From Desulfarculaceae bacterium (GTDB lineage: Bacteria; Desulfobacterota; Desulfarculia; Desulfarculales; Desulfarculaceae): a stretch of DNA of 33,621 nt. The translations under genes and the position numbers were made by a program. The notes below the pieces were generated by a model. The model saw only the letters and a list, made by a program, of their open reading frames with translations, ran no database searches and was not told the DNA's origin. Every line of letters begins with the position of its first letter. Position 1 is the stretch's first letter. Shown here in pieces: positions 2,320-31,860 of the stretch. The stretch lies in the NCBI GenBank assembly GCA_028277825.1, contig JANQFN010000393.1, forward strand, positions 1 through 33,621, written 5' to 3'.

Positions 2320-2620
2320 GGTGGTGTAGGTGTATTTTGGCCTGCTGTTAATGCAGGACGGCCGGCCTGTGGTAAAGGCACTTGCTATTCCCTCAGTTCA
2401 TCTGTCCAGTGGATTTTTGCAAGTCTGATGGCTTCCTACCTGTGCCTGGCGAAAATTTTTCGAACTTTGCATATCCCAGCCCAACACCTCGACTGTTTGA
2501 CTGTAACAAAAGCAATCTTTGTGCCAATATGCACAAAATGGCCCGATTCATGATTTTCCACGAAAATACTCTTTAATTGCCATATGTTAAACTAATAAAC
2601 CAAGATAAAGGCTGGGCAAA

Positions 2621-5110: not shown

Positions 5111-6520
5111 ATGTTTCGGGTGTTGATTGCCGAACCCAACGGCCGACTCAGGCAAAATTTGGAACGCCTGGTGATAGACCAGGGCTTCCGGGCTGTGCAA
5201 GCCCGGAATGCTGATGAGGCTCTGGCCGAAGTAGGGAGCAACTCGCCCGACCTGGTGTTGGTAAGCGTCGCCCTGCCCCCGGACGGGGGTTTGAAATTCC
5301 TAACCCTTGTCAAGGAAAGTGACCCCCGCTTGCCGGTGATTGTTACCGCCGCTCAGGGGGCCACCAATGAAACCATCGAGGCCATCAAACGGGGAGCCTT
5401 TGATTACGTAACCCTTCCTTATGAACCGGTGGATATGGCCTCCCTGATTCGCCAGGCCCTGGAATCGGGGCGCCTGGTCCGCTCCCCTGTGCAGTTGGAC
5501 AGCAAGGAAGAGCACGAGTTCATGGCCGGTGATGCCTTGTTGGGGCGCTCCCGGCCCATGCAGGAGTTGTACAAGGCCATCGGCCGGGTGGCGGCCACGG
5601 ACTCCACAGTGCTTATCCAAGGTGAAAGCGGCACCGGCAAGGAGTTGGTGGCCCGGGCGCTGTTCCAGCACTCCACCCGGGCGGACAAGCCCTTCGTGGT
5701 GGTCAATTGTGTGGCCATTCCCGAATCCCTTTTGGAGAGTGAGCTTTTTGGCTATGAAAAAGGGGCCTTCACCGGTGCCAACTCCCGGCGGATAGGAAAA
5801 ATCGAGCAGGCTGACGGGGGCACCATCTTTCTAGATGAAATCGGTGACATGCCCCTGGCCATACAGGCTAAAATGCTCCGGCTGCTGCAAGAGCGCAGCG
5901 TGGAGCGCATCGGAGGCCGTACCCCTCTGCCGGTTGACGTACGCATTCTTGCCGCCACCAACCGCGACTTGGCCCAGGCGGTGAGCCAAGGGCGTTTCCG
6001 CGAGGACCTTTTTTACCGCCTGAACGTGGTGCCCATCCACTTGCCCCCATTGCGTGAGCGGAGCGAGGATGTGCCCGTGTTGGCTGACTACTTTTTGGCT
6101 CGGGTCACCCGGGAATTGGGGGTGCGCAACCCCGGCATCACCCCCGAGGCTTACGAATTGTTGACCGCACACCCCTGGCCAGGCAACGTTCGCGAGTTGG
6201 CCAATGCCATGGAGAAATGCCTTATCTTCGGCCGGGGCCATCCGGTGGGGGCTGAGGAGGTGGGTTCGCTGGCGTTGAACCAGGATTCCGGCCCCGGCGG
6301 ATTGAATCCCGAGTTGGATGAAGCCATTAGGGCCTGGGCCCGCCAAGGCATCGCCTCAGGCCGCTCCAAATTACTGGCTGAAATGCTGGACCGGGTGGAG
6401 GAGCTAATCGTGTCCGAAGCTCTGGAGAACACCGGCGGCAACCGCACACGGGCCGCCCGGCTGCTGGGTATTTCCCGCCCCTCGCTGCTGACCCGCATAA
6501 AAAAGTACGGCATCGGCTAA
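5111..6520 (+). CDS. Sigma-54-dependent enhancer-binding protein with degenerate receiver domain
   Basis: The 469-residue NtrC-family protein has three parts. A receiver-like domain covers residues 1-120. The AAA+ sigma-54 interaction domain covers about 142-375, with Walker A GESGTGKE (171-178), GAFTGA loop (218-223), Walker B GGTIFLDEIGD (236-246) and an arginine-rich FREDLFYRLNVVPI segment. A Fis-type helix-turn-helix forms the end (NRTRAARLLGISRPSLLTRI). The ATPase and DNA-binding parts look intact. The receiver does not: the acidic pair is Glu8-Pro9, the phospho-acceptor position is Ser52 (LVLVSVALP) and the conserved Lys is Leu102 (DYVTLPYEP). Normal phosphorylation is therefore unlikely. 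It sits just upstream of a consensus sigma-54 promoter and an operon with a histidine kinase, which it probably activates. How it is switched is unknown. Confidence 0.93.
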   Translation: MFRVLIAEPNGRLRQNLERLVIDQGFRAVQARNADEALAEVGSNSPDLVLVSVALPPDGGLKFLTLVKESDPRLPVIVTAAQGATNETIEAIKRGAFDYVTLPYEPVDMASLIRQALESGRLVRSPVQLDSKEEHEFMAGDALLGRSRPMQELYKAIGRVAATDSTVLIQGESGTGKELVARALFQHSTRADKPFVVVNCVAIPESLLESELFGYEKGAFTGANSRRIGKIEQADGGTIFLDEIGDMPLAIQAKMLRLLQERSVERIGGRTPLPVDVRILAATNRDLAQAVSQGRFREDLFYRLNVVPIHLPPLRERSEDVPVLADYFLARVTRELGVRNPGITPEAYELLTAHPWPGNVRELANAMEKCLIFGRGHPVGAEEVGSLALNQDSGPGGLNPELDEAIRAWARQGIASGRSKLLAEMLDRVEELIVSEALENTGGNRTRAARLLGISRPSLLTRIKKYGIG

Positions 6521-6569
6521 GCTCAAATTCATTTACAATTTGAGCGTAAGAAATTGTAACGCTTTGTAA
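6521..6569 (+). repeat. Overlapping inverted repeats, candidate upstream activating sequence
   Basis: Directly after the regulator stop, GCTCAAATT (6521-6529) pairs with AATTTGAGC (6537-6545). Overlapping it, TTACAATTT (6533-6541) pairs with AAATTGTAA (6551-6559) across a 9-base spacer, and a further TTTGTAA follows at 6563-6569. All arms are perfect. They lie about 125-175 bases upstream of the sigma-54 promoter, the usual place for enhancer-binding protein sites. The first repeat could also act as a weak transcription end, but it has few G/C pairs and no T-run. Confidence 0.45.
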
Positions 6570-6693
6570 AAAATTCCGACACCAAACCTCTCTCACATCT
6601 ATTTTGTCGGCATTTCAAGAAGTACTTGTACAACTAGCTGATATTAATTGTTTTAACTGTAGTGATGGGGCACAGATCAGCTGGTAGTGAAGT

Positions 6694-6710
6694 TTGGCAC
6701 AACCTTTGCT
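6694..6710 (+). promoter_or_regulatory. Sigma-54 (-24/-12) promoter of the kinase-permease operon
   Basis: TTGGCAC (6694-6700), five bases, then TTGCT (6706-6710) matches the TGGCAC-N5-TTGCW consensus completely, with GG and GC 10 bases apart. Transcription would start near 6722. A ribosome binding site AGGAG (6735-6739) lies 7 bases before the TTG start at 6747. Confidence 0.88.
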
Positions 6711-6746
6711 TTGTTGGTATGAGCATCTATCAACAGGAGAGGACCT

Positions 6747-8474
6747 TTGCGCTTAAACCCCAGCCGGCCCAACAGATACTATCGAGCCCTCACCCGCAAT
6801 CTGGTGCTGTTTGTGGTGGTGGTATCTCTTTTGCCGCTGCTGTTCACCGGGGCCATTCTCCTCTATCAGTTTGAGCAAGCCTATCAGAGTAAGGTCGAGG
6901 AGCATCTTGAGGTGCTGCTCAAAAAGCACCGCCGCACCATAGATGCCTTTTTACATGACCGCTTGGCCGACATCCGGGTGTTGACCCGCTCACTCACAGT
7001 GGCGCAGATGAAAGATTCGTCGTTGCTTCAAACCAAACTCAATTTGCTCCGCGAGGAATATAACGGCGTCTTCGTGGATTTGGGGCTGGTGGATCCGAAG
7101 GGTTTGCAGGTGGCCTATGCCGGCCCATTCAATTTGATAGGCGCAAATTACGCTGGGGCCAAATGGCTGGAGAGGGCCCGGGCCGATGAGTACTTCATTT
7201 CCAATGTTTTCGCCGGATTCAGGGGCAGCCCACACTTCATCGTGGCGGCTCATAAGCGCCTGAATGGGCAGGATTGGCTCTTGAAGGCGACCATTGATTT
7301 CGAGACCTTCAATGCCTTGGTGGAGAACATCCGCATTGGTCAGACCGGCTTCGTCTTCATTTTGGACCGCAAGGGCGAACTCCAGACCAAACCCCGTCAG
7401 GAAGTAGTATTGGCCAGTGGAGCCTGGAGGGAAATCTTGGCCCTTCCCCTAAAAGAGGGAAAGGTGACCATCATTGAACAGGCCGATTCTCTGGACCGGG
7501 AAACGATCTATGCCGCCGCCTCTTTAAAAAACAGCTCGTGGATAATTTGCGCTCAGCAGGAGCGTTCCGACGCTTTCATGCACTTACTGCGTGCCCAGCA
7601 GGCCGCGTTGGTCATCTTTGTGTTGGGGGGCGTGGCCATTGTGCTGGTCTCGCTTTTGTTGGCCCGCCGTCTGGTCAGGCGTATCGCCGAGGCCGACAGT
7701 CAGAAGGAAGCCATGAACGAAAAAATGATTGAGGCCGGACGCCTGGCCTCCATTGGTGAGTTAGCCGCTGGCATCGCCCACGAGATAAACAACCCGGTGG
7801 CCATAATGGTTGAGGAAGCCGGTTGGATCGAAGACCTCATGTCCGATGACGGACCTCTCAGCGAAGAGACTTTAGCCGAGATTCAAAGGGCCGTGCAGCA
7901 GATTCAGGAACAGGGCGACCGTTGCAAGCAGATTACCTACAAACTTTTGAGCTTCGCCCGCAAGACCGATCCCACGGTCAAGGAAGTGAGCATCAACCGG
8001 CTGGTAGAAGAAGTCATCGGCTTGGTGAGCCAGAAATCACGCTACGGAGGGGTGAAAATCATAACCGACTTATCCGCCGGGCTGCCCCCGGTGGCGGCGT
8101 CTCCTTCCGAGCTGCAGCAGGTGCTTTTAAACCTGGTCAATAATGCCGTGGACGCCATCGAGAGCGACGGGGGAACCGTGGAAGTGATCACTTCCCAGGA
8201 GCAGGGCGATATTCATTTAACGGTGACCGATACTGGTATTGGCATTGCCGAGTCCAACCTGGCCCGTATATTCGACCCATTTTACACTACCAAACCGGTT
8301 GGGCAGGGCACCGGCCTGGGGCTTTCCATCTGTTACGGCATCATCAACAAGTTGGGGGGCGAGATCAAGGTGACCAGCGTCAAGGGTAAGGGGTCAGCCT
8401 TCACCGTGACGTTACCTGCTGACCAAAACAACAATCCGGCCTCGGCATCTGCCGAACAGGCCGAGCAAAGTTAA
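6747..8474 (+). CDS. Membrane sensor histidine kinase with dCache-like periplasmic domain
   Basis: The 575-residue protein has TM1 at about 20-42, an extracytoplasmic region of about 240 residues with Cache-like sequence (GQTGFVFILDRKGELQTKP), and TM2 at about 286-308. HisKA follows with the phospho-His in LAAGIAHEINNP (His345), then a HATPase domain with N-box NLVNNAVDAI (462-471), G1 DTGIGI (495-500), F-box FDPFYTTK and G2 GTGLGL (521-526). All catalytic motifs are present. The start is the TTG at 6747, chosen because AGGAG lies 7 bases upstream and TM1 begins soon after. There is no attached receiver; the two genes directly downstream encode stand-alone receivers that are the natural partners. 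Cache domains bind small molecules such as organic acids, but the ligand here is unknown. It is first in the sigma-54 operon. Confidence 0.92.
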   Translation: MRLNPSRPNRYYRALTRNLVLFVVVVSLLPLLFTGAILLYQFEQAYQSKVEEHLEVLLKKHRRTIDAFLHDRLADIRVLTRSLTVAQMKDSSLLQTKLNLLREEYNGVFVDLGLVDPKGLQVAYAGPFNLIGANYAGAKWLERARADEYFISNVFAGFRGSPHFIVAAHKRLNGQDWLLKATIDFETFNALVENIRIGQTGFVFILDRKGELQTKPRQEVVLASGAWREILALPLKEGKVTIIEQADSLDRETIYAAASLKNSSWIICAQQERSDAFMHLLRAQQAALVIFVLGGVAIVLVSLLLARRLVRRIAEADSQKEAMNEKMIEAGRLASIGELAAGIAHEINNPVAIMVEEAGWIEDLMSDDGPLSEETLAEIQRAVQQIQEQGDRCKQITYKLLSFARKTDPTVKEVSINRLVEEVIGLVSQKSRYGGVKIITDLSAGLPPVAASPSELQQVLLNLVNNAVDAIESDGGTVEVITSQEQGDIHLTVTDTGIGIAESNLARIFDPFYTTKPVGQGTGLGLSICYGIINKLGGEIKVTSVKGKGSAFTVTLPADQNNNPASASAEQAEQS

Positions 8475-8507
8475 CGAACCAAAGCCTTTTTGTGTGGAGG
8501 AAGAACC

Positions 8508-8954
8508 ATGGTTCAAATCAATCCCTCAATTCTGCTGGTGGACGACGAAGTGCCCTTCGTGGAAACCATGGCCAAGCGATTGGCAAAGCGGGATTTGACC
8601 GTTGATACGGCTTTTGGAGGCCGCGAGGCCCTTAAAAAGCTGGACAGCGGCGGACCAAGCACCATCGACGTGGTCATTTTGGATGTCAAGATGCCGGGCA
8701 TGGACGGGTTGGAGACCTTGGCTGCAATCAAGTCCGCCCACCCCAACGTCGAGGTGATCATGCTGACCGGACACGCCACAGTGGAGAGTGCCATCGAGGG
8801 CATGAAGGGCGGGGCCTACGACTACCTCATGAAACCCTGTGAGATGGATTTGCTCATGTCCAAAGTCAACGAGGCGGTAGACAAAAAACGGGCCCATGAG
8901 GCCAAGATTTTGGATGCCCGCGTGCGCATGCATGCCCTCAGGAGAGAGTCTTAG
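8508..8954 (+). CDS. Single-domain response regulator (first of three)
   Basis: A 148-residue CheY-like receiver without an output domain. The phosphorylation residues are intact: acidic pair Asp12-Asp13 (ILLVDDEV), acceptor Asp59 (VVILDVKMPGMDG), Thr87 (MLTGHA) and Lys109 (DYLMKPCE). A charged tail of about 25 residues follows. The ORF track starts 18 bases earlier, but GGAGG (8496-8500) lies 7 bases before ATG 8508, so that is the better start. It probably takes phosphate from the adjacent histidine kinase. With no effector domain it must act by protein contact or as a phosphorelay intermediate; the target is unknown. Confidence 0.9.
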   Translation: MVQINPSILLVDDEVPFVETMAKRLAKRDLTVDTAFGGREALKKLDSGGPSTIDVVILDVKMPGMDGLETLAAIKSAHPNVEVIMLTGHATVESAIEGMKGGAYDYLMKPCEMDLLMSKVNEAVDKKRAHEAKILDARVRMHALRRES

Positions 8955-8965
8955 AGGGAGCAGTC

Positions 8966-9346
8966 ATGAGCGAAGAAGGCGCCGAGCGGATCAAAATTCT
9001 TCTGGTGGATGACGAGCTGGGCTACCTGGAGGTGCTTCAAAAGCGCATGGACAGGCGTGGGCTGGCTGTCACTCCGGTGAGCAGCGGCACCGAGGCCATT
9101 CGTGTGGCGCGTCGGCAGAGTTTTGACGCGGCGGTGGTGGACCTGAAGATGGAAGACATGGATGGCATAGAGGTCCTCAAGGTCTTGAAGGTGATGGACC
9201 CCGATCTGGCGGTCATCATCCTCACCGGCCACGGTTCGGAGCAGGCCGCCCGGGAGGGCATGGCCCACGGCGCCTTCGACTACCTGACCAAACCCTGCGA
9301 GTTGAGCGACCTGTTGGAGCGCATTTACGCCTCGCAGAAGAGCTAG
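8966..9346 (+). CDS. Single-domain response regulator (second of three)
   Basis: A 126-residue CheY-like receiver starting 11 bases after the previous stop. The residues needed for phosphorylation are present: Asp15-Asp16 (ILLVDDEL), Asp59 (AAVVDLKMEDMDG), Thr in IILTGHG and Lys109 (DYLTKPCEL). It resembles the previous gene closely enough, including the shared KPCE segment, to suggest a tandem duplication. No output domain is present. Candidate partners are the histidine kinase upstream and the permease or small membrane protein downstream. Confidence 0.9.
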   Translation: MSEEGAERIKILLVDDELGYLEVLQKRMDRRGLAVTPVSSGTEAIRVARRQSFDAAVVDLKMEDMDGIEVLKVLKVMDPDLAVIILTGHGSEQAAREGMAHGAFDYLTKPCELSDLLERIYASQKS

Positions 9347-9405
9347 GCACATTGCGGCCTGCTCTGGCGACAACCATAGCGATTCGGAGTGGAAGGTAAT
9401 TAGCA

Positions 9406-10722
9406 ATGAATTTCTTTAAAGGGTTAGGACAATTCATGATGGCCGGGGCCCATGCGCATGCCCGCTGGGAGCTAGCTACGGCCCGCACCATTATGGGTGA
9501 CAAAAAGAGATTGGCGATCCTGGGGCTGATGCTCCTGCCGGTTATCCTCGGCGGAATCGCCTTTGCCGATGAAATCGCCAATAATTTGCCGGATGTGCTG
9601 GGCGGCAAAAAGGCCTATAGCCCGGCCTTCTACAGTACAGGGATATTCATCGCCTCCATTCTCATTGGCCTTTGCGCCGGACTCATCACCGGTTGCATCG
9701 GCGCTGGTGGCGGTTTTATCATCGCCCCGGCCCTGATGAGCGCCGGCATAAAGGGCATCCTGGCGGTGGGCACCGACCTGTTCCACATTTTCGCCAAGGC
9801 CATCATGGGAAGCGTTATCCACCGTAAACTGGGCAACGTATCAGTGGCCCTTGCCGTGACCTTTTTAATCGGGGCCATCGGCGGGGCCACTTGTGGCGGG
9901 CTCGTAAACCGGGTGCTTTATGAGATCAACCCGGTGCTGAGCGATGCCTTCATCACCACCGTCTACGCGGTGATGCTCGGCGGCCTGGGCTTTTACGCCT
10001 TGGCGGACTTCTTCAAGTGCCGTAAAGACGCCGAGGCCTGTGAACTGCCCCACGGCGGCAAGGTAGAGGGCGCCGAGTTAGGCAACATGCCCAAGAAGCT
10101 GCAGGGGATGAAACTGCCCCCCATGGTGCGTTTCGACCAGAGCCTGGTGCCCGGCGGCAGGGCCATCAGCGCCTGGTTCTTGATCATCAGTGGTTTTGTG
10201 GTGGGGCTGGCCGCCGGAATCATGGGCGTGGGCGGTGGCTTCCTGACCTTCCCCATCTTCGTCTACACCCTGGGTGTCAGTTCCATGACCACGGTGGGCA
10301 CCGACATCTTCCAGATCGTGTTCACCGCCGGCTATGCCGCCATCAGTCAGTATGCAATCTTCGGGTTCATCTTCTACACTTTGGCCATGGGCATGCTCAT
10401 TGGTTCGCTCTTGGGCATCCAGATAGGCGCCATGGTCACCAAAGTGGTGCCCGGTGTGACTATCCGCGGCTTCTACGCCATGGCCGTGCTGGCCGGCTTC
10501 ATGAACCGCATTTTCGCCCTGCCCGGCAAGCTGAGTGAGATGGAGGTGCTGCCGCTGCCTAAAACCGCGGTGACCATTCTGGACCAGATAGGCATCTGGG
10601 CCTTTTTCGCGGTGATCGGCGGTTTCGCGGTTTGGGTGATCGGCACCTTTTTCAAAAACACCAAAAACCTCAAAACAGCCCATCCCCCGGGAATGGCTCC
10701 GGGCGAGGAGGTGGCCTCATGA
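9406..10722 (+). CDS. TauE/SafE-family anion permease
   Basis: The 438-residue polytopic membrane protein shows the internal duplication of the family: GLITGCIGAGGGFIIAPALM (about residue 89) and GLAAGIMGVGGGFLTFPIF (about 268), each followed by a VGTDxF motif (VGTDLFHIF and VGTDIFQIV). Family members export or take up sulfite, sulfonates or related small anions, often by proton-linked transport. It has an N-terminal extension with one extra hydrophobic segment (LAILGLMLLPVILGG) and a cytoplasmic linker of about 60 residues between halves that contains cysteines (FFKCRKDAEACELP). Being in one operon with a sensor kinase suggests the kinase senses the transported compound or its metabolism. 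Substrate not determinable. Confidence 0.88.
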   Translation: MNFFKGLGQFMMAGAHAHARWELATARTIMGDKKRLAILGLMLLPVILGGIAFADEIANNLPDVLGGKKAYSPAFYSTGIFIASILIGLCAGLITGCIGAGGGFIIAPALMSAGIKGILAVGTDLFHIFAKAIMGSVIHRKLGNVSVALAVTFLIGAIGGATCGGLVNRVLYEINPVLSDAFITTVYAVMLGGLGFYALADFFKCRKDAEACELPHGGKVEGAELGNMPKKLQGMKLPPMVRFDQSLVPGGRAISAWFLIISGFVVGLAAGIMGVGGGFLTFPIFVYTLGVSSMTTVGTDIFQIVFTAGYAAISQYAIFGFIFYTLAMGMLIGSLLGIQIGAMVTKVVPGVTIRGFYAMAVLAGFMNRIFALPGKLSEMEVLPLPKTAVTILDQIGIWAFFAVIGGFAVWVIGTFFKNTKNLKTAHPPGMAPGEEVAS

Positions 10723-11420
10723 ACTCCCACGGCAAGGACAAAAAGAAGCTGATAGGCGGCCTGCTGATGACCGTGGTGTTCGTCGTGGTGCTCATCATTT
10801 TCTTCATGCCCGTTTTTGGCAAGGGCCAAAACGGCCTGGACTACTTGGACAACCTATATAACTCCATATCCAAGAAATCGGCATTCTACATCCCCGAACT
10901 GGCCGCTCAGGCGAAGCAGTTCAATGACACCAAACTGGATGCCACCCTCGACTTGCCCGACAAGGCCACGGCGGCGCGGGCGGCTTTGTTGTTCGCCCGC
11001 TCCGGCGCCACGGCCAAACAAAGTGGCGACAAGTTGGCGGTTAGCGGCGACCTGGGAAAGGTGCTGGCCGCCACCCTGGCCGACAGCGAGACCATGTTCA
11101 ACAACCAGGGAGACAAGCTGAGCAGCCTCTATGGAGGCAAGGACGCCAGGCTGATGCTCTACACCTGGTGGAGCGCCTACAAGGCCCTGGAAAAATCTCT
11201 TAACCGGCAAGAGGCCTTTGCTCAGGCGAAATTCGTCAAGGTGGTGCAGGCCAAGGCGGTGGAGATGAGCTACAATTACTACGGTATCGAACCGCAAAGT
11301 ATCGGCGAACGCTGGCTGATCGTTTTGCTCTCTTTGTTGTTCTACACGGTCTACACTTTGTGGTTCGGTTTCGGAGTCATGTACCTGTTTGAAGGAAGCG
11401 GTTATCAACTGGAGCACTAA
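10719..11420 (+). CDS. Uncharacterised two-TM membrane protein coupled to the permease
   Basis: I do not recognise a named family. The 233-residue protein has an N-terminal TM (LIGGLLMTVVFVVVLIIFFMPVF, about 11-33), an extracytoplasmic region of about 165 residues rich in Ala, Lys and Asp with predicted helices, and a C-terminal TM (WLIVLLSLLFYTVYTLWFGFGVMYLF). The ORF track starts at 10632, inside the permease gene. ATG 10719 is preferred because it overlaps the permease stop as ATGA and follows GAGGAGG. This coupling suggests equal production and a possible accessory or partner role for the permease. It is the last gene before the terminator. Confidence 0.8.
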   Translation: MNSHGKDKKKLIGGLLMTVVFVVVLIIFFMPVFGKGQNGLDYLDNLYNSISKKSAFYIPELAAQAKQFNDTKLDATLDLPDKATAARAALLFARSGATAKQSGDKLAVSGDLGKVLAATLADSETMFNNQGDKLSSLYGGKDARLMLYTWWSAYKALEKSLNRQEAFAQAKFVKVVQAKAVEMSYNYYGIEPQSIGERWLIVLLSLLFYTVYTLWFGFGVMYLFEGSGYQLEH

Positions 11421-11429
11421 CCGGGGAGC

Positions 11430-11460
11430 GGGGCCGCTCGCAAGGGCGGCCCCTTTTCTC
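11430..11460 (+). terminator. Rho-independent terminator of the sigma-54 operon
   Basis: GGGGCCGC (11430-11437) pairs perfectly with GCGGCCCC (11446-11453) across an 8-base loop and is followed by TTTTCTC. It starts 10 bases after the last stop codon of the operon. Confidence 0.9.
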
Positions 11461-11469
11461 CTTTACCCC

Positions 11470-11475
11470 TATACT
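11470..11475 (+). promoter_or_regulatory. -10-like element directly before receiver gene 3
   Basis: TATACT (5/6 match to TATAAT) ends 8 bases before ATG 11484. Transcription would begin at or next to the start codon, so the message would be leaderless. No good -35 is visible; the expected position falls in the terminator stem. Confidence 0.35.
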
Positions 11476-11483
11476 ATGATCTC

Positions 11484-11912
11484 ATGCAGTTTGAGCATCC
11501 CATACGCGTCCTCCTGGTGGACGACGAGGAAGCCTTCAGCGAGGTCCTGGCCCGGCGTCTGACCCGGTTGGGATTGACCGTAGCCACCGCCAGCAGTGGG
11601 GCCCAGGCCCTCAGGGCTTTGGCTGCATCCCCGGTCGACGTAGTGGTGCTGGACGTGAAGATGCCTGACATGGACGGCTTGGAGGTCTTGGCCCGCGTGA
11701 AGGCCGCCCACCCCCTTATCGAAGTTATCATGCTCAGTGGGTACACCGACCTGCCCACCTCCATAAACGGTTTGGAGCTGGGGGCCTTTGATTACCTGCT
11801 CAAACCGGCGCCCCTGGAGGAGGTGGCTGATAAAATATATGACGCCTGGCAAAAAAAGGAGGTGGCCGAGAAGAAGCTCGCCGCGTTGCAAGCCGAAATT
11901 CCCAAGAGTTAA
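11484..11912 (+). CDS. Single-domain response regulator (third of three)
   Basis: A 142-residue CheY-like receiver with all phosphorylation residues: Asp13-Asp14 (VLLVDDEE), Asp57 (VVVLDVKMPDMDG), Ser in IMLSGYT and Lys107 (DYLLKPAP). It has a short charged C-terminal helix and no output domain. It resembles the two receivers at 8508 and 8966. No Shine-Dalgarno precedes the ATG, and a TATACT box lies only 8 bases upstream. It is 18 bases before the PEP-synthase-like gene and probably cotranscribed with it, so it may control that protein directly or link it to the kinase at 6747. Confidence 0.9.
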   Translation: MQFEHPIRVLLVDDEEAFSEVLARRLTRLGLTVATASSGAQALRALAASPVDVVVLDVKMPDMDGLEVLARVKAAHPLIEVIMLSGYTDLPTSINGLELGAFDYLLKPAPLEEVADKIYDAWQKKEVAEKKLAALQAEIPKS

Positions 11913-11930
11913 CATCCGGCAGGATGGGGC

Positions 11931-14546
11931 ATGGACAACTTCAAGGATAAAATCAAGCGCCTTTTTGGCAGACGAAGCGAGCCCCCGGCCGACGAGGCGG
12001 GCCTGGGCGAAGAGTTTAAGGCCCGATATCTCAGCTTTCGTAAACTGCTGGCGGCCAACAACAAAGCTTTGGAACTCATGGCCGAAATGGAGGCCGCGGC
12101 CGGTGGAGGCAGCGTCTTCGGCATGTCCTTCGTTCGTTCCCGCGCGACTGCCCTGGGGGTGAGCGTCTACACCATGGTGGACCAAATGGAACGCTTAGCC
12201 CCGGGTAAGTATTCCGCCCTTATGCCGCGCCTCAAACAAATTCAAGCCAATCTGGATGAGCTGCTTACCTCGGCGGATAAGCCCGGCAACGAAGAGTTGA
12301 TCTTGCCCCTGGGCGCCATAGACCAGAGCCGGGCCGACGAGGCAGGTGCCAAAATGGCCAACCTGGGTGAGATAAAAAACCACCTGGGGCTAACCGTGCC
12401 CCCGGGCTTTGTACTCACCGCCGCCGCCTGGCGGCTGCTGTTGGCCTCACAGGGGCTGGGTGAGGAGATCTCCCGCCGGCAACAAGCCGCGGATATTGAA
12501 AACGCGGCTGAATTATTCACCCTGAGCAGCCAACTTAGACAACTTATCGTGGATGCCCCCCTGCCTTCTTGGCTGGAGGAAGCCTTGGATGCCGCCTATG
12601 TCACCCTGGCCGGCGAAGCCAATGGCCGGGTGCGGGTGTCCATGCGCTCCAGCGCCTTGGGCGAGGACAGCGCCGAGGCCTCTTTTGCCGGCCAATACGC
12701 CACCCAGCTCAACGTGCATCCTGATTTTTTGTCTCAGAGCTACAAAGAAGTGGCGGCGAGTTTTTACAGCCCCCAAGCCATGCACTACCGCCTGGTGCGG
12801 GGCCTGCGCGATGACCAACTGGCCATGGCCGTGGGCTGCCTGGCCATGGTCCCGGCGGTCAGTGGCGGGGTGGCCTACACCGCCAGCCCCCTGGATCGGG
12901 CCGATCGCGATGTGCACTTGACCGCCGCCTGGGGTCTGCCCCGGGTGGTGGTGGATGGCGAGGCCGCGGGTGACCACTTTGTGGTTAGCCGCCGCGAACC
13001 TCACCGGGTACTGAGCCAGAGCGTTGAGAACAAAACCAGTGAATTGGTCTGCCATCAAGATGAAGGGACTTGCCGCCTGGAACTTACCGACGAACGGGCC
13101 AACCAGCCCTGCCTGAGCGACCGGCAGGCAGTGGAGGTGGCCCGGGCGGCGCTCAAGCTGGAAGCTCACTACGGAGGCCCGCAGGATGTGGAGTGGGCCT
13201 TTGATGGATCGGAGCGTTTGACCCTGTTGCAGTGCCGGCCCCTGAGTCCGGCCGAGGCTGTGTCAGCCACGCCCGCCAAACCGGATCGAGCTTCCAGCGG
13301 CCTGCCCGCTCCTTTGGCCAGCGGCGGCATCACCGCCAGCCCCGGAGCCGGGGCCGGAGCGGTGCACTGGGTAACCAAGGACGTTGACGCCCTCACTTTC
13401 CGCCCGGGTGCGGTGTTGGCTGTAGAGCGGCCCTCCCCCCGCTGGGCCGTATTGGTGGCCAAGGCGGCGGCGGTGGTCTCGGCCCAGGGCGGAGCCGCCG
13501 GCCATTTGGCCACGGTTTGCCGCGAATATGGAGTGCCGGCCTTGTTCGGCCTGAGCAATATCGCCGAAACCTTGGCTCCGGGCACGGAGGTTACCGTGGA
13601 TGCTTCGGCCCAGGCGGTCTACCCCGGCCGAGTGGAGAGGCTGCAGGCGGCCAAGCAAAAGCGGCCGGATTTCATGGCCAACAGCCCAGTGCAACGCCTG
13701 CTGGGGCAAGCCCTGGAGCTAATTTCTCCACTTAGCCTGCTTGATCCCGACTCGACCGCATTCAATGCCGCCAATGTCAAAACCCTGCACGACATCACCC
13801 GCTTTTGCCACGAGAAGAGCGTGGCCGAAATGTTCGCCTTTGGCAAAGAGCGCCGCTTCCCCAGACGAGCGGCCAAGCAACTCTATTTTCAGGTGCCCAT
13901 GCAGTGGTGGGTGCTGGACTTGGACGATGGCTTCAGCCACGAGGTAACGGGTAAATATGTCAAACTGGATGACATAGCCAGCCTTCCCATGTTGGCCGTG
14001 TGGGAAGGGATGACAGCCATCCCTTGGGAGGGACCGCCGGCGGTGAGTGGCCGCGGTTTGGCTTCGGTCATGTTTGAAGCCACCGCCAATCCGGCCCTGA
14101 CCACTGGAGTCAAGAGCCGCTATGCAAACCGCAACTACTTCATGATCGCCGAACACTTCATGAACTTGCAGTCACGTTTTGGTTTTCACTTTTGCGCGGT
14201 GGAGGCGTTGGCTGGGCCGCGGCCGCGGGAAAATTATCTGAGCTTCTCCTTCAAAGGAGGAGCGGCGGACAGCTCCCGCCGTATCGGCCGGGTGCATTTC
14301 ATCGGCGAGATTTTAGAAGAGCGCGGCTTTAGTGTGGAGTTGACGCAGGATAATTTGAGGGCCCGTTTGGAAAGGGATGAGCAAGCCGCTACTTTAAACG
14401 CGGTGAAAGTGGTGGGCTATATGTTGATGCACACTCGCCAACTGGACATGATCATGGCCGATCCAGGCCGGGCGGCTTATTACCGGGACAAAATAAACAC
14501 CGACTTGGATTCCTTGCAAGATGCCGCCTCACAGCCCCATAGTTGA
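11931..14546 (+). CDS. PEP-synthase/PPDK-like protein with unusual N- and C-terminal regions
   Basis: The protein has 871 residues. Residues 30-115 form a helical region of unknown type. The PPDK N-terminal ATP-grasp domain follows at about 138-440, with VSMRSSALGEDSAEASFAGQ (236-255) and DVEWAFDG...LLQCRPL (419-437). A swivelling phosphohistidine domain covers about 468-570 with GGAAGHLATVCREYGVPAL; His525 is the predicted phospho-carrier. From about 580 to the end, where PEP synthase and PPDK carry the PEP/pyruvate-binding TIM barrel, I see no barrel motifs and recognise no family. ATP-driven histidine phosphorylation is therefore likely, but the acceptor need not be pyruvate; other ATP-grasp/phosphohistidine proteins use different partners. 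The gene follows receiver 3 by 18 bases. Confidence 0.8.
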   Translation: MDNFKDKIKRLFGRRSEPPADEAGLGEEFKARYLSFRKLLAANNKALELMAEMEAAAGGGSVFGMSFVRSRATALGVSVYTMVDQMERLAPGKYSALMPRLKQIQANLDELLTSADKPGNEELILPLGAIDQSRADEAGAKMANLGEIKNHLGLTVPPGFVLTAAAWRLLLASQGLGEEISRRQQAADIENAAELFTLSSQLRQLIVDAPLPSWLEEALDAAYVTLAGEANGRVRVSMRSSALGEDSAEASFAGQYATQLNVHPDFLSQSYKEVAASFYSPQAMHYRLVRGLRDDQLAMAVGCLAMVPAVSGGVAYTASPLDRADRDVHLTAAWGLPRVVVDGEAAGDHFVVSRREPHRVLSQSVENKTSELVCHQDEGTCRLELTDERANQPCLSDRQAVEVARAALKLEAHYGGPQDVEWAFDGSERLTLLQCRPLSPAEAVSATPAKPDRASSGLPAPLASGGITASPGAGAGAVHWVTKDVDALTFRPGAVLAVERPSPRWAVLVAKAAAVVSAQGGAAGHLATVCREYGVPALFGLSNIAETLAPGTEVTVDASAQAVYPGRVERLQAAKQKRPDFMANSPVQRLLGQALELISPLSLLDPDSTAFNAANVKTLHDITRFCHEKSVAEMFAFGKERRFPRRAAKQLYFQVPMQWWVLDLDDGFSHEVTGKYVKLDDIASLPMLAVWEGMTAIPWEGPPAVSGRGLASVMFEATANPALTTGVKSRYANRNYFMIAEHFMNLQSRFGFHFCAVEALAGPRPRENYLSFSFKGGAADSSRRIGRVHFIGEILEERGFSVELTQDNLRARLERDEQAATLNAVKVVGYMLMHTRQLDMIMADPGRAAYYRDKINTDLDSLQDAASQPHS

Positions 14547-20438: not shown

Positions 20439-22499
20439 CTAAAAAGGCAGGCCGAAATCTCTCTTGGGCTTGGGGTGCGGGTAGCCGCCGTAATAGGTCA
20501 AAGCGCTGCGCGGCGGGGAGAGCTTGGCCCACTCCTCCTCGAACTGCTCCAGAGGCACCCCGCGCGCCTTGCGTTCTTGGAAGGCATCCCGGCGCAGCTT
20601 CTCGGTTCCCTCCTGGTCCACCAGCAGCGTCTCGGGGTCAAAGGCCACCTTGTACAGATTGGCCGCCGTCTCCCGGCTTACCAGACCCTCGCGCACGTCG
20701 GCCATCACCGCCTCGGCCTCGCGCTCCAGCACATCGCCGTAGCCCGCGCCCCCGCCGGCGGGCATGTAGTAAGTGTCGCCGTTGACAAAGGGGGTGATGC
20801 CCATGGTGATGTTATGCAGGCCGCGGTTGCCCTTCTCCGGGTTGCCCTCCTCGTAGAGTTGGTCCAGGTCCACCGGCAGATCGCGGTCGCTCTCGGCCAA
20901 GTGCTTTTTGATGTCGCTGCCGTGTACCGTCTGGATAAAGCCCGAGGGCACGGCGTAGCCCCCGAAGATACCCAGGGTGGCGGGGTACTTGCTGCCGTAG
21001 CCCAGCCCGCCCATGGCCAGCCAGGGCACGTGGTGGATGGCCACCCCGAAGCCCACTCCCGAGCCGCCCCGATATTTGCCGGGCCCGTAGGAGTTCTTGA
21101 AGTAGTTGCGGAACAAATACAAAAAAGGTCGGTCCGCCTCGGTGGTCTCCACGTCGGAGCAATCGCTCATGGTGGCGAAAAAAGCCCCGGCCCCGTTCAC
21201 TCCATCCTGGTCCGGCCGGGCCCCGGCCCCGGTGGCGTTGAGTTCGGGGCTGATGTCGGCCACCGGCTCCTCCCACTGGTTGAAGCCGCCGAAGTAAGGC
21301 ACCCCGAAGCCGCTGAACCAGGAGGCCACCGCCCGCTTGGGGTCCAGGTTGTAGATCATGCGCGCCCCGATCAGAAAGATGCCGTGCACGAAACAGGTCT
21401 GCACCGACGGGGCCAGGGCGGTGGGCGCGTCGCCGCTGGCCTTTACTATGGTCTTGTCCGGGAACTCCCAGTCCAGGGCATCCAACAGGGCGTTGTTGGC
21501 CGGCAGGTCGTGGAAGAACCAGCCGCAGAAATAGACCATGGCCAAGCCGATGATGCCCTGAAAGAAGCTGTTTTGGGGATGATTGTCCAGCAGGGGCGAA
21601 ACCCCGTCGAAGGTAAGCTTGAGCTTGTCACCTTTCTTTTCCAGGCAGATGCCGATCTTGACCAGCTTCTCCTCGCTGCCCACGATGTCTAAAAAGCGGG
21701 GCTGGCGCCAGGTGCCGTCGTTGAGCTTGGAAACCTTTTTGCGCGCCGCCCGGGCGGTGGTGGCCAGTATCTTGCGTAAGGCGCCCCGAAAGAACGCCAC
21801 CCCTTTCTCGGCCACGATCGCCTGAATGCGCCGCTCGACGATGCGGCAGGCGGCCAGGCGGGCCTTGATGTCCAGCACCATGGTGCGCGGGTCGCGGGTG
21901 GCGGTGCCCAGCATGGTCATGAGGTCCTCACGCAGGGTGTAATTCTCGCCCACCTTGATGGGGGGCACCATCAACCCTTCCTCGTAGCGCGACTTGGCCG
22001 CGATGGGCTGGCCGCCGGGCTCGGCCGAGCCGTTCTCACCGGTGTGCACGTTGGCCCCCACAAAACACAGCAGTTCACCTTCGGCGAACACCGGCACGCA
22101 CAGGCCCATGTCCGCCGCGTGCACCCCGGAGTAGAAGGGGTCGTTGAAAAAAAACGAATCCCCCGCCTCGACCCCGACCGTGGGGTCGTTCAGGTAGTGC
22201 TTGACGATGTACTTGACTGGAATCTGGCCCAGCACCGCGTGGAACCAAATGCCGGTGGCCACCACCGACAGATCGCCCAGGGCGGTGTAGATCCCGAAGG
22301 CCACGTCCCCCCAGCGCATGCCGGTGGAGGCTCCCAGTTTCATGGTGGTTTCCTTGCCCTCTAAGGCAATCATGTTCATCTTATGCTGGAATATCTCAAA
22401 ATCCAGATCCTCCACGCCCGCCATGGCCGCCTGTTCCTCCGGGGTGACCGCCTCGGGCTTGAGCCGCTCTACGACTTCGGTGTCTCTGGTGTAAGCCAT
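20439..22499 (-). CDS. HyuB-type subunit of ATP-dependent ketone carboxylase (hydantoinase B/oxoprolinase family)
   Basis: The 686-residue protein shows family segments GDSFFFNDPFYSGVHAADMGLCVPVF, GLHNITMGITPF and MPAGGGAGYGDVLERE. Family members include HyuB, the alpha subunit of acetone carboxylase and the gamma subunit of acetophenone carboxylase. In acetone and acetophenone carboxylases this type of subunit is thought to join the activated ketone enolate with (phospho)carbonate. The start ATG 22499 follows GGAGAGCGGAG and lies 18 bases after the HyuA-like gene. Its size (about 75 kDa) fits the 75-kDa acetophenone carboxylase subunit as I recall it. Hydantoinase activity is less likely given the two HyuA genes, the zinc-ribbon gene, and the ligase and thiolase in the same operon. 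Confidence 0.85.
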   Translation of the reverse strand: MAYTRDTEVVERLKPEAVTPEEQAAMAGVEDLDFEIFQHKMNMIALEGKETTMKLGASTGMRWGDVAFGIYTALGDLSVVATGIWFHAVLGQIPVKYIVKHYLNDPTVGVEAGDSFFFNDPFYSGVHAADMGLCVPVFAEGELLCFVGANVHTGENGSAEPGGQPIAAKSRYEEGLMVPPIKVGENYTLREDLMTMLGTATRDPRTMVLDIKARLAACRIVERRIQAIVAEKGVAFFRGALRKILATTARAARKKVSKLNDGTWRQPRFLDIVGSEEKLVKIGICLEKKGDKLKLTFDGVSPLLDNHPQNSFFQGIIGLAMVYFCGWFFHDLPANNALLDALDWEFPDKTIVKASGDAPTALAPSVQTCFVHGIFLIGARMIYNLDPKRAVASWFSGFGVPYFGGFNQWEEPVADISPELNATGAGARPDQDGVNGAGAFFATMSDCSDVETTEADRPFLYLFRNYFKNSYGPGKYRGGSGVGFGVAIHHVPWLAMGGLGYGSKYPATLGIFGGYAVPSGFIQTVHGSDIKKHLAESDRDLPVDLDQLYEEGNPEKGNRGLHNITMGITPFVNGDTYYMPAGGGAGYGDVLEREAEAVMADVREGLVSRETAANLYKVAFDPETLLVDQEGTEKLRRDAFQERKARGVPLEQFEEEWAKLSPPRSALTYYGGYPHPKPKRDFGLPF

Positions 22500-22517
22500 G
22501 CTCCGCTCTCCTCTTAT

Positions 22518-24677
22518 TTAGACCGGCTCCAGCACGCCGTTGAAAAACTGGTCCAGGGTGAAACGCCAGGAAGGTTCGATCACGAAGGTGGTGTGGCGGG
22601 CGTCCACCAGGGCCGGGCCGCTGATCTGGTTGCCCGGCAGCAGGTGGTGAAAATCATAAACCGCCGTTTGGCTGAACCCGCCCTGGCTGCGCCAATAGGC
22701 CCGCCGGGGTTCGCGGGCCGCCTCGGCCGGCGGCGCCGGTCCGGCCAGTTCGGCCGGGTTCCAGGAGGGCGGCGCCTGTTCCACCGTGGCGGTCAGGTAG
22801 AAGCACTCCACGTTGATGCCGCCCTGGAGAAAGGTGGCTTCCGGCGAGTACACCCGGGAATACTCCTGGGTGAAGGCGTCGCAGATGTCCTTGATGTGAT
22901 CGGGGTTTTCAAGGATCAGGTGGGGCGAGATCACCTTGGTGAGGTTGTATTGCATGCCGTAGCGCATGTCCAGCTCAAGCCGGAAGTTGATCGAATCCTC
23001 GCTGTATCCCTCCAGGCGCAGGTCGCGCACCGCCAGGTCCTTGAGTTCGGCCACCACCCGGTTGAAGCTTTCCAGGTCCGAAGAGTAGGACTGGTCCTTG
23101 TAGCGAAACAGTTTTTGGGTGGCCGAGTGATCCCACACCTGGCGCACCTTGACCGTGGAGGCCCCATAGGCCCCGGAGACCGGGGAATAATAGGGGGCCA
23201 GGACCTTGCTGACCCCCAGGTAAGGGGCAAAGCCACAGGCATGGGCCGGGCCGGCCCCGCCGCAAGTGAAGAGCATGAAGTCGCGCGGATCATGACCCTT
23301 GAGGGCCACCTCGTTGAAGGCCTCTTGTCCCATGTTGGCGTCCACCAGGGCCCTGATGCGGGCGGCGGCCTCGGCGGTTTCCAGACCCAGGGGATCGGCG
23401 ATCTTCTTGCGGATCACCTCCTCGCTCAACTCGGGGGCCAGGAGCATCTCGCCACCCAGATAATTGTCCGGGTCCAGATAACCCAGCACCAGGTCCGCGT
23501 CGGTGACGGTGGGTTCTTCGCCGCCCTGGTCGTAGCAGGCCGGACCGGGCATGGAGCCGGCCGACAGGGGGCCCAACTGAAGCGCGTTGTCCATCAGCTC
23601 GTTGAGCCAGGCGATGGAGCCGCCCCCGGCCCCAATGGACTTGACCTCAATGGCCGCGATGTTGGTGCGCCAGCGGTCGATGACCTGAATGAAGTCATAG
23701 GTCTTCAGGCGGCCGTCGGTGATCACCCCAATGTCAAATGAGGTGCCGCCCATGTCGGTGAAAACGATGTCCTGTTGACCGTACTCCCTTCCCAGGATGG
23801 CCGCCCCGTGCAACCCGGCCACAGGCCCGGCGTTGTGGGTGAGCACCGCCCGCGTGCGCGAGACCTTTTTCATGCCCCCGGTGTTTTGCACCAACTGCAG
23901 GGGCCGGGTGTAGCCGGAGGAGCGCAGGTCGTGGATCAGGGAGTTGAGCTCCTCGGCCATCACCCCGTGGATATAGGCGTTGACCACGGTGGTGACGAAG
24001 CGAGTGTACTCGCCCTGCTTGGGCGACACCTGGCAGGACAGAGTCACCGGCATGGAACCCAGGTAGTCCTCGGGATATTCCTCTTCGATGATCTGCTTGA
24101 TGGCCTGCTCGTGCACCGGATTGGCAAAGGACCACAGCAGACAGACCACGAAACCCATGGCCCCCCGGTCCACCAATAGCTGCAGCTTTTCCAGCACCTC
24201 CTCGGCCTGCAGGGGGCAAACCACGTTGCCCGCCGAGTCCACCCGCTCGCGCAGGCCAACCACCATGTCCCGGGGGATCAGGGGCTCGGCCTTGTTGATG
24301 CGGGCCAGGTCCTTGTTTTCGGTAACAGTCACGCCGTCGGCCCAGGAACGGGCCCGCCCCAGGAAGATGGTGTCCTCAAAGCCGGCGGTGGTGATGAGTC
24401 CCAGCTTGGGGCCGCTGCGCTCGATCAGGGCGTTGGTGCCCACCGTGGTGCAGTAGCGCACGGCCCTGGTCTGGGACAGCAACTGGTTTTGGCCCAGGCC
24501 GCACTCTTTGGCCAGGTCCTTAATGCCCCGCATGAAGCCCACGGACAGGTCATAGTGGGTGGTGGGGGTCTTGGACAGGCGAACTTCGCGCTCCGGGTCC
24601 TTTAGAAAGAAGTCGGTGAAGGTGCCTCCGACGTCTATGTTGATCTCGTAACCCGCTTGTGGTTGCTTGCTTGCCAT
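22518..24677 (-). CDS. HyuA-type ATPase subunit 1 of ketone carboxylase
   Basis: A 719-residue hydantoinase A/oxoprolinase-family protein of the ASKHA fold. It has phosphate-binding NIDVGGTFTDFFLKD at the N-terminus, HNAGPVAGLHGAAILGREYG and the second Asp motif FTDMGGTSFDIGVI in the middle, and GSIAWLNE and CGGAGPAHACGFA further on. I use ATG 24677 because AAGGTG lies just upstream; the GTG at 24683 in the track overlaps that site. The first codons lie 3 bases from the UroD-like stop. Family members use ATP to phosphorylate either the ketone enol or carbonate. It is one of two different HyuA genes here, as in acetophenone carboxylase, which has two HyuA-type subunits. Confidence 0.87.
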   Translation of the reverse strand: MASKQPQAGYEINIDVGGTFTDFFLKDPEREVRLSKTPTTHYDLSVGFMRGIKDLAKECGLGQNQLLSQTRAVRYCTTVGTNALIERSGPKLGLITTAGFEDTIFLGRARSWADGVTVTENKDLARINKAEPLIPRDMVVGLRERVDSAGNVVCPLQAEEVLEKLQLLVDRGAMGFVVCLLWSFANPVHEQAIKQIIEEEYPEDYLGSMPVTLSCQVSPKQGEYTRFVTTVVNAYIHGVMAEELNSLIHDLRSSGYTRPLQLVQNTGGMKKVSRTRAVLTHNAGPVAGLHGAAILGREYGQQDIVFTDMGGTSFDIGVITDGRLKTYDFIQVIDRWRTNIAAIEVKSIGAGGGSIAWLNELMDNALQLGPLSAGSMPGPACYDQGGEEPTVTDADLVLGYLDPDNYLGGEMLLAPELSEEVIRKKIADPLGLETAEAAARIRALVDANMGQEAFNEVALKGHDPRDFMLFTCGGAGPAHACGFAPYLGVSKVLAPYYSPVSGAYGASTVKVRQVWDHSATQKLFRYKDQSYSSDLESFNRVVAELKDLAVRDLRLEGYSEDSINFRLELDMRYGMQYNLTKVISPHLILENPDHIKDICDAFTQEYSRVYSPEATFLQGGINVECFYLTATVEQAPPSWNPAELAGPAPPAEAAREPRRAYWRSQGGFSQTAVYDFHHLLPGNQISGPALVDARHTTFVIEPSWRFTLDQFFNGVLEPV

Positions 24678-24679
24678 GC

Positions 24680-25633
24680 TCACCTTCTCATCTGGCGTAT
24701 TTGTTTAACCAGTGCCAACAGGGCTTGGGGGTCGTGGCCGCGCTTTAAGGGCCCCAGGCTGGTAAAGAAAAAGTTGCGCCCCGGCTTTTCGGCCAAGGCC
24801 CGGCCGCCAATTTCCAGCATCTGCTGGCATTGCGCTGGGTCGGCCGGCGAGAGCCCCAGCCCGATGCCCAAGCAGTCCGCGGCCAGTTCCCACTGGGCCT
24901 CCAGGGGAGGGGCCTGCCCGGCCTGGTCCGGCCCCAGGATGTAGAGGTCCATTTTCAGCGCGGCCAGGTCTTGAATCTGCCCGGCCCGGTAGTCTTGCAG
25001 GTATAGTCCCGTGGCCACGTCGTAGTAAGCCGCGATTTTTTTGAGCGTGAAGTACAGGCGCTTTAAGGCCGGTGGCAGGGGCTGGGCCACCAGGGGCCCG
25101 CTCTCCATGAGCAGCAGCACGTCGGGCCGGAGCTTGCAGAATTCCTCGTAAACCGCCATCAGAGCCGGCTTGATCACCGCGGGATCGGCTTCGGCTCCTT
25201 CCGCCTTAAAAAGCTGCGAGGCCACGGTCAGAGGGCCGTTCACCGCGGCCACGCAGCCGCGCTGATTTTTGACCACCTCGAAGACGCGCTTGGTGGCTTC
25301 CAGGGCTCCGGGCAGGCGGCCGCGCGCCAGGGGGTCCTCTCGCGGCGCTCCGGGCGGCGGGCCCAGTTGGGGACGATCGCCGGACCATTGCAACTCACAG
25401 CCGCAGGCCTCGGCCAAAAGGCTGAAGTGGAAACCAGCCACCACCCCGTCCAGGTCGAAGAGTTCCACTGTCTTGGCCAGGCTGTTGGCCCACATGGTGG
25501 GGTCGCAGGTCAGCTCCTGGTGGCCAACTCCGCCCACCTGGGCGGTGATGCCCCTGAGCAGGGGCACATATGCCGGCCTGGGCGGCAGCTCACCCGCCAG
25601 GAACTGGTCAAATATGTCCCGGCCGCTGGTCAT
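24680..25633 (-). CDS. UroD-like protein embedded in the carboxylase operon
   Basis: The 317-residue protein starts at ATG 25633, which overlaps the previous stop as ATGA; the track's longer form (to 25852) is not supported. The sequence VPLLRGITAQVGGVGHQELTCDPTMWANSLAKTVELFDLDGVVAGF and ACGCELQW follow the UroD/MtaA TIM-barrel superfamily. The H-x-C zinc motif of the methyl-transferring members, present in the gene at 32805, is not visible here. The calculated size, roughly 34-35 kDa, is close to the fifth, loosely bound 34-kDa subunit of acetophenone carboxylase as I remember it, but I cannot confirm homology. Translational coupling on both sides argues for a role in the carboxylase itself, for instance in maturation or as an accessory subunit. 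Confidence 0.75.
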   Translation of the reverse strand: MTSGRDIFDQFLAGELPPRPAYVPLLRGITAQVGGVGHQELTCDPTMWANSLAKTVELFDLDGVVAGFHFSLLAEACGCELQWSGDRPQLGPPPGAPREDPLARGRLPGALEATKRVFEVVKNQRGCVAAVNGPLTVASQLFKAEGAEADPAVIKPALMAVYEEFCKLRPDVLLLMESGPLVAQPLPPALKRLYFTLKKIAAYYDVATGLYLQDYRAGQIQDLAALKMDLYILGPDQAGQAPPLEAQWELAADCLGIGLGLSPADPAQCQQMLEIGGRALAEKPGRNFFFTSLGPLKRGHDPQALLALVKQIRQMRR

Positions 25634-25962
25634 GCGCGTCCATACCGCTCGATGAGCGAGTCGATATCCAGCTCGATTTCGTGGGTGAGGGGATGCCCCG
25701 GAGGCAGGTACTCGTTTTCGATCATCACCCCGCAACCAGGGCAATAGAACTCGATGAGCCGGCAGAAGTCCGGGTCCGGAATGAAACCATAGGCCTGCCC
25801 CTCGGGTTTGGGAGGATAAACCTCCTCCAGAGGCTTTTCGGCCACAAGACAACCCTTCTTGTAATTCTGCCGCGCATCGACCAGTTCATGCCCGCAGCGT
25901 TGACAGCACCATTTTTGACTCTCCAGGTCCACTTCCAGGTATTCGGTGATCCTGACTTTCAT
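25630..25962 (-). CDS. Zinc-ribbon small subunit of ketone carboxylase (acetone carboxylase gamma-like)
   Basis: A 110-residue protein with two Cys pairs, Cys20-x2-Cys23 (CQRCGHEL) and Cys74-x2-Cys77 (YCPGCGVMIENEY), forming a zinc ribbon, and an acidic C-terminus (HEIELDIDSLIERYG). Small subunits of acetone carboxylase (gamma) and acetophenone carboxylase (beta, 15 kDa) have this plan. The ATG is 2 bases after the HyuA-2 stop, and its own stop overlaps the next start as ATGA. It probably fills a structural role in the carboxylase complex. Confidence 0.8.
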   Translation of the reverse strand: MKVRITEYLEVDLESQKWCCQRCGHELVDARQNYKKGCLVAEKPLEEVYPPKPEGQAYGFIPDPDFCRLIEFYCPGCGVMIENEYLPPGHPLTHEIELDIDSLIERYGRA

Positions 25963-25964
25963 GG

Positions 25965-31798: not shown

Positions 31799-31860
31799 GC
31801 TCTGCTCATGGTGCTTGCTGACCGGCAAGTTGCCGGCACAAACGGTCGGGGCTGGTCTCC

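Follow-up and report, generated by a model that had tools for sequence, protein, structure and literature searches.

A PEP-synthase-like protein family with a putative new output domain in place of the PEP/pyruvate barrel, encoded beside TauE/SafE permeases and receiver-only regulators

What does a protein built like a PEP synthase do if the part that handles PEP and pyruvate has been exchanged? The question is raised by an open reading frame at 11931-14546 (+) of the window, the 33,621-nucleotide stretch of Desulfarculaceae DNA analysed here, which encodes, from an ATG start, an 871-residue PEP-synthase-like protein (PPSL). Dikinases serve in PEP manufacture, rifampin inactivation and phenol activation. 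The first-pass annotation of this DNA had described intact ATP-grasp and phosphohistidine domains, unfamiliar sequence at both ends and no PEP/pyruvate barrel, and had proposed that shuffling created a new dikinase-type phosphotransferase with a signalling link. Our analysis confirmed the observation and partly supported the interpretation.

The ATP-grasp and phosphohistidine (swivel) domains of PPSL are intact, with clear Pfam matches (Table 1) and with the catalytic residues K141, R239, E421, Q434, R436 and His525 present in the alignment. Position 525 is a histidine in 128 of 138 aligned PPSL proteins and an arginine in nine. NCBIfam models of PEP synthase align only up to about residue 576, with scores far under their cut-offs, and the PDB sequence matches (best 9dae and 2ols) are limited to the ATP-grasp and swivel part. 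The full-length AlphaFold model (pLDDT 84.1) has structural matches to PEP synthase, rifampin phosphotransferase (RPH), pyruvate phosphate dikinase (PPDK) and HpeI, which we read as arising through the ATP-grasp and swivel domains because none of these is matched by the C-terminal part on its own. The N-terminal ~120 residues, for which no Pfam family was matched, are indeed unfamiliar; they are modelled as a helical hairpin or bundle (helices 20-57, 65-89 and 97-112) and carry residues conserved across the family (F36, L40, N43, L47 and L97). An Hpt-like N-terminus is ruled out, as this region is without a conserved histidine.

The C-terminal region was searched for a diverged but complete barrel. 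PPSL has no Pfam match to PF02896 (PEP-utilizers_C), which represents the barrel, and a search with residues 581-871 alone was without a match in Pfam, NCBIfam and the PDB; a 29-sequence profile of the region gave the same result in the same three libraries. The AlphaFold model of this part, computed with 29 aligned relatives (pLDDT 79.7, pTM 0.74), is a mixed alpha+beta fold and not a (beta-alpha)8 barrel. A Foldseek search of the model against the PDB returned nothing below an E value of 0.001, and weak fold matches (best E 0.037) were set aside. Profile comparison with hhalign gave a probability of 0.1% against true PEP-synthase barrels, for which the barrel control gave 100%, and 0.3% against the RPH-type middle domain. 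Pfam, the profile comparison and the fold model together rule out a TIM barrel diverged beyond recognition, and the profile comparison rules out an RPH-like substrate domain. The region has conserved residues of its own, namely H620, H627, H753, G777, R787, D807 and D839; H753, R787 and D839 are invariant among the 138 aligned proteins, and H620 and H627 occur in 137 of them. By sequence, profiles and fold model, the PEP/pyruvate barrel is replaced in PPSL, with the domain order of PEP synthase retained.

Table 1 Features of the PPSL locus (window coordinates)
Feature	Position	Strand	Evidence or remark
Sigma-54-dependent response regulator (receiver + AAA + Fis HTH)	5111-6520	+	PF00158 1.6e-74, PF00072, PF02954
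Sigma-54 promoter element TGGCAC-N5-TTGC	6695-6709	+	0 mismatches; 38 bp before kinase gene
dCache histidine kinase	6747-8474	+	PF02743, PF00512, PF02518; TTG start as listed
RRa, receiver-only response regulator	8490-8954	+	ORF; homologues recur beside PPSL family
RRb, receiver-only response regulator	8966-9346	+	ORF; homologues recur beside PPSL family
TauE/SafE (TSUP) anion permease, 438 aa	9406-10722	+	PF01925 2e-36; conserved partner
M234 membrane protein	10716-11420	+	Overlaps permease gene; ends in His
RRc, receiver-only response regulator	11484-11912	+	PF00072 4.9e-29; 18 bp before PPSL
PPSL	11931-14546	+	ORF, Pfam, PDB matches, AlphaFold, structural matches
Extra N-terminal helical domain, PPSL residues 1-120	11931-12290	+	AlphaFold helices; conserved residues
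ATP-grasp (PPDK_N), PPSL residues 137-446	12339-13268	+	PF01326 1.2e-83; structural matches 2ols, 5hv6, 9goj
Phosphohistidine (swivel) domain, PPSL residues 491-559	13401-13607	+	PF00391 (PEP-utilizers) E 4.5e-16
His525 codon, expected phosphohistidine	13503-13505	+	Aligned with swivel-domain His
New C-terminal domain replacing TIM barrel, PPSL residues 581-871	13671-14543	+	Sequence, profile and model evidence

Compared with known dikinases, PPSL shares with PEP synthase (PpsA, TIGR01418) and PPDK the ATP-grasp (PPDK_N) domain followed by the swivel, in the same order, but it is without their PEP/pyruvate TIM barrel and has instead a new domain of ~290 residues and a helical N-terminus of ~120 residues. 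The small-molecule dikinases RPH, HpeHI and PpsAB (phenylphosphate synthase) also combine ATP-grasp and swivel without a barrel and use a phosphohistidine mechanism, which is predicted in PPSL (PMC4844700, PMC12167813); however, RPH-type proteins carry a segment of ~450 residues between ATP-grasp and swivel, whereas in PPSL the new domain comes last. Loss of the barrel is thus already known from RPH and HpeHI (PMC12167813), and so is the chassis of PPDK_N and swivel. What is new in PPSL is the output domain, the barrel-free domain order and the partnership with permease and receivers, for which the libraries searched hold no described counterpart. The window protein has the whole set of family hallmarks: the helical N-terminus, ATP-grasp, swivel, and the C-terminal domain with H620, H627, H753, R787 and D839. 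A subfamily of ~1065 residues (loci L275, L276, L277, L278, L279, L280, L281 and L288) has an extra C-terminal domain of ~220 residues that weakly resembles ConA-like 3-keto-disaccharide hydrolase domains (PF06439, E 7.5e-4). Fusions of PPSL with a receiver are ruled out, as the long frames are either this ConA-like extension or out-of-frame sequence.

The architecture is not a peculiarity of one genome but is found in many sulfate reducers. The C-terminal domain is encoded in 54 of 148 related genomes, so a chance origin was dismissed, and within a single family 121 of 148 genomes have it. In a sample of 296 genomes from the phylum of the window, 110 have PPSL, often in several copies and up to 12 per genome. 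Within this sample, dsrA counted above its curated cut-off occurs in 108 of the 110 genomes with PPSL vs 38 of the 186 without it (Fisher p 1e-44, not corrected for phylogeny). A GTDB-wide scan of limited sensitivity placed all matches that span the C-terminal part in deltaproteobacterial-titled records, except for one Betaproteobacteria-titled MAG. As far as seen from these sequences, PPSL is a large and old family with multiple copies, restricted to the phylum that was sampled. Of the shuffling idea, the replaced barrel stands, but the age and copy number of the family speak against a recent event.

Decayed copies suggest which part of the protein matters most. The ATP-grasp residues and the phosphohistidine are both kept in 122 of 138 aligned PPSL proteins; among the 16 degenerate ones, nine have lost both, six only the ATP site, and one is partial. 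With one exception, the degenerate copies adjoin another copy, which is usually intact. In Desulfovibrio pairs, the mean identity of the decayed copy is 76.5% over the C-terminal domain vs 57.8% over ATP-grasp, and that of the intact partner is 69.5% vs 70.5%. Since the C-terminal domain is kept where the ATP site or histidine has decayed, it is under selection separately from any ATP chemistry of its own chain, and its preservation in tandem copies indicates that it carries the core function. One PPSL gene, at L226:8166-10124, is seemingly frameshifted, with C-terminal matches in two frames, and stands in the nitrate-cluster gene order described below. A calcineurin-like phosphoesterase gene (PF00149) lies next to the third tandem PPSL gene, and convergent with it, in several genomes (L049:16135-16806, L180:12777-13475 and L135:5108-5863).

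In the window, PPSL is the last of a run of genes in the order sigma-54 regulator, histidine kinase, two receivers, TauE/SafE permease, M234, receiver and PPSL, and this order recurs in relatives, as does the sigma-54-dependent regulator gene upstream. A perfect sigma-54 element lies in the gap behind the regulator gene and fits the gene run from kinase to PPSL; by our own estimate, based on a 10-base motif, ~0.06 perfect elements are expected in the window. A strong terminator-like hairpin at 11430-11453 (+), with a 10-bp stem and a T run, lies between M234 and RRc. PPSL expression may accordingly be separate from that of the permease, and the run from kinase to PPSL is perhaps not one transcript. 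M234 gave no significant Pfam or NCBIfam match; its sequence reads as two hydrophobic segments flanking a long stretch outside the cytoplasm, and it is conserved directly 3' of permeases of the 438-residue type.

Across the family, the same kinds of neighbours return. Of the 96 groups of PPSL genes, 83 have a receiver-only gene and 64 a TauE gene within 6 kb, about a third being without the latter; a receiver-only gene on the same strand lies within 250 bp of 68 of the 138 PPSL genes. Histidine kinases recur too, and the full set of recurrent neighbours comprises permease, accessory membrane protein, receivers, kinases, USP and CBS proteins. No catabolic enzyme recurs among PPSL neighbours. 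A second clade (B) has the order kinase, sigma-54 regulator, USP, TauE, PF09608 protein, PPSL and receiver, often with a degenerate and a third PPSL next, 3' of the receiver, and a third arrangement has a membrane protein of ~100 residues as accessory. Several deeply split clades thus keep permease, accessory membrane protein, receiver-only gene and PPSL together, with accessory proteins (M234, PF09608 or the ~100-residue protein) that are unrelated between clades, and every type of permease retains a separate lineage of PPSL. The proposed signalling link holds in so far as receivers and kinases recur family-wide, but the most telling neighbours are the TauE/SafE permease and the accessory membrane protein that goes with it. 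Pairs of TauE/SafE and TIGR02186 (PF09608) in Alphaproteobacteria belong to the same permease and accessory families as in clade B, but no PPSL is annotated beside them and the C-terminal GxH is absent.

That ending is a marked feature of the partner proteins. A C-terminal histidine occurs in 30 of 30 PF09608 proteins, 30 of 31 paired TauE proteins and 12 of 13 of the ~100-residue membrane proteins, against a background of 10 in 364; the loci include L186, L040 and L242-L271, and in the window the M234 end at 11420. Endings in the phylum of the window are GAH or GGH in PF09608 proteins and paired TauE, and EH in the ~100-residue protein and about half of M234. All seven alphaproteobacterial PF09608 proteins are without it. 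As about half of M234 proteins are without the histidine and it is present in the PPSL-free genome G181, we regard it as a lineage trait, and it is ruled out as the phosphoacceptor of PPSL.

Genetic data bear on this family through a cluster in Desulfovibrio. In D. vulgaris and D. alaskensis, nitrate sensitivity comes from the cluster DVU0251-DVU0245 / Dde_0597-0605, which encodes a TauE permease, a small protein, PtxB, a histidine kinase, a receiver and a protein with PPDK_N and mobile domain, the last being DVU0246; transposon insertions in DVU0251 (TauE), DVU0250, DVU0247 (receiver) or DVU0246 abolished nitrate inhibition, and the authors proposed a leaky thiosulfate transporter (PMC4001038). 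Mutants of DVU0245 are still nitrate-sensitive (PMC4001038), so the effect of DVU0246 is not polarity on DVU0245. A literature search found no other paper naming DVU0246, and the published study left the C-terminal domain undescribed (PMC4001038). The same order (TauE, a protein of ~213-223 residues, PF12974, kinase, receiver, PPSL) is present in relatives, and in two of these (L218 and L221) PPSL bears the new C-terminal domain. DVU0246 is probably the PPSL counterpart, a membership that we infer from synteny; it is annotated at 745 codons vs ~870 for PPSL. The window region 6747-14546 resembles the nitrate cluster in having TauE, a small accessory protein, histidine kinase, receiver-only regulator and PPSL, but it differs in its 438-residue permease with M234, its three receivers and its sigma-54 regulator. 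The gene for the PtxB-like phosphonate-binding protein (PF12974) of the nitrate cluster, seen in L221 and L226, is absent from window positions 5111-14546.

Taken together, these results point to an anion-permease module of the TauE/SafE type, controlled by a two-component system, in which PPSL is the phosphohistidine component that uses ATP and activates or energises oxyanion uptake; we give this proposal about an even chance. The ATP-grasp domain would phosphorylate His525, converting ATP to AMP and Pi, with both the reaction and its direction predicted, and the swivel would carry the phosphoryl group to the C-terminal domain. The latter would then act on or with the permease complex, the receiver proteins or both, and uptake of an oxyanion (putatively thiosulfate, sulfite or a related ion) would depend on agreement among kinase, receiver and PPSL. 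The functional link between PPSL and permease is the best-supported step; the phosphorylation and its acceptor we infer. The proposal draws on co-occurrence in deep clades, the dsrA association, the DVU0246 genetics, the kept C-terminal domain, the separate PPDK and the sigma-54 element. PPSL groups without TauE within 6 kb suggest that the partner is perhaps encoded elsewhere or that the role is wider, and the ConA-like extension of the ~1065-residue subgroup is unexplained by the model. A bolder form is that an ATP-driven phosphohistidine relay on the PEP-synthase chassis directly gates or powers the secondary-type permease through the new output domain, with degenerate paralogues as dedicated docking subunits. 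Sulfate reducers would then have a phosphotransferase-coupled system of anion transport that resembles the sugar PTS in logic but is built from unrelated parts; we put this forward tentatively, as something that would be more surprising to see confirmed than refuted.

The decayed copies also bear on the reading of PPSL as a metabolic dikinase that phosphorylates a small molecule imported by the permease, its C-terminal domain binding the substrate as in RPH or HpeHI/phenylphosphate synthase. Its ATP-grasp and swivel match those of PEP synthase, RPH and HpeI, the conserved His, Arg and Asp of the C-terminal domain could bind an anion, and replaced substrate domains have a precedent in HpeHI and PpsAB (PMC12167813). 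This reading is nevertheless rather unlikely, as the C-terminal domain is kept in tandem copies that lack both ATP site and histidine, recurrent catabolic enzymes are missing nearby, and both the domain order and the profile of the middle domain separate PPSL from RPH; a plain small-molecule dikinase is likewise disfavoured. That PPSL is a PEP synthase or PPDK which has diverged but still makes PEP is very improbable: PEP synthases share 30-36% identity with half of the protein, but the barrel is absent by sequence, fold model and profile comparison, and the catalytic histidine is lost in some copies. The window genome also encodes a separate PPDK and an enzyme I, which leaves PEP synthesis to other proteins.

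A further reading, in our view also unlikely, makes PPSL a branch of the two-component system that acts as phosphodonor or phosphatase, exchanging phosphate between His525 and receiver-only proteins to tune sigma-54 transcription with no direct permease contact. Receiver-only genes are the commonest PPSL neighbours, receiver mutants of Desulfovibrio have the same phenotype (PMC4001038), and a sigma-54 regulator gene and a perfect element precede the cluster. Yet kinases are already there to phosphorylate the receivers, and this reading alone gives no reason for every type of permease to have a PPSL clade of its own. The swivel histidine of dikinases, moreover, normally donates to a bound substrate rather than to a receiver aspartate. 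Of the readings weighed, we prefer the permease module, and we conclude that PPSL probably switches or drives anion uptake and does not serve PEP manufacture.

A widespread dikinase branch tied to permeases and receivers would extend these enzymes to the control of membrane transport. Dissimilatory sulfur metabolism begins with the uptake of sulfur oxyanions, and the working of TauE-type permeases in sulfate reducers is described as unresolved (PMC5840216). The PPSL family offers a testable cause for the unexplained nitrate-resistant mutants of Desulfovibrio, which bear on souring control.

Other features of the window lie outside the PPSL locus. A second perfect sigma-54 element (TGGCAC-N5-TTGC) is found at 2512-2526 (-). 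Downstream of PPSL, hydantoinase/oxoprolinase genes occupy 20439-28010 (-), with a B gene at 20439-22499 and A genes at 22518-24683 and 25965-28010, and a gene for a VWA-domain protein adjoins a CbbQ/NorQ-type AAA gene at 29495-32694 (-).
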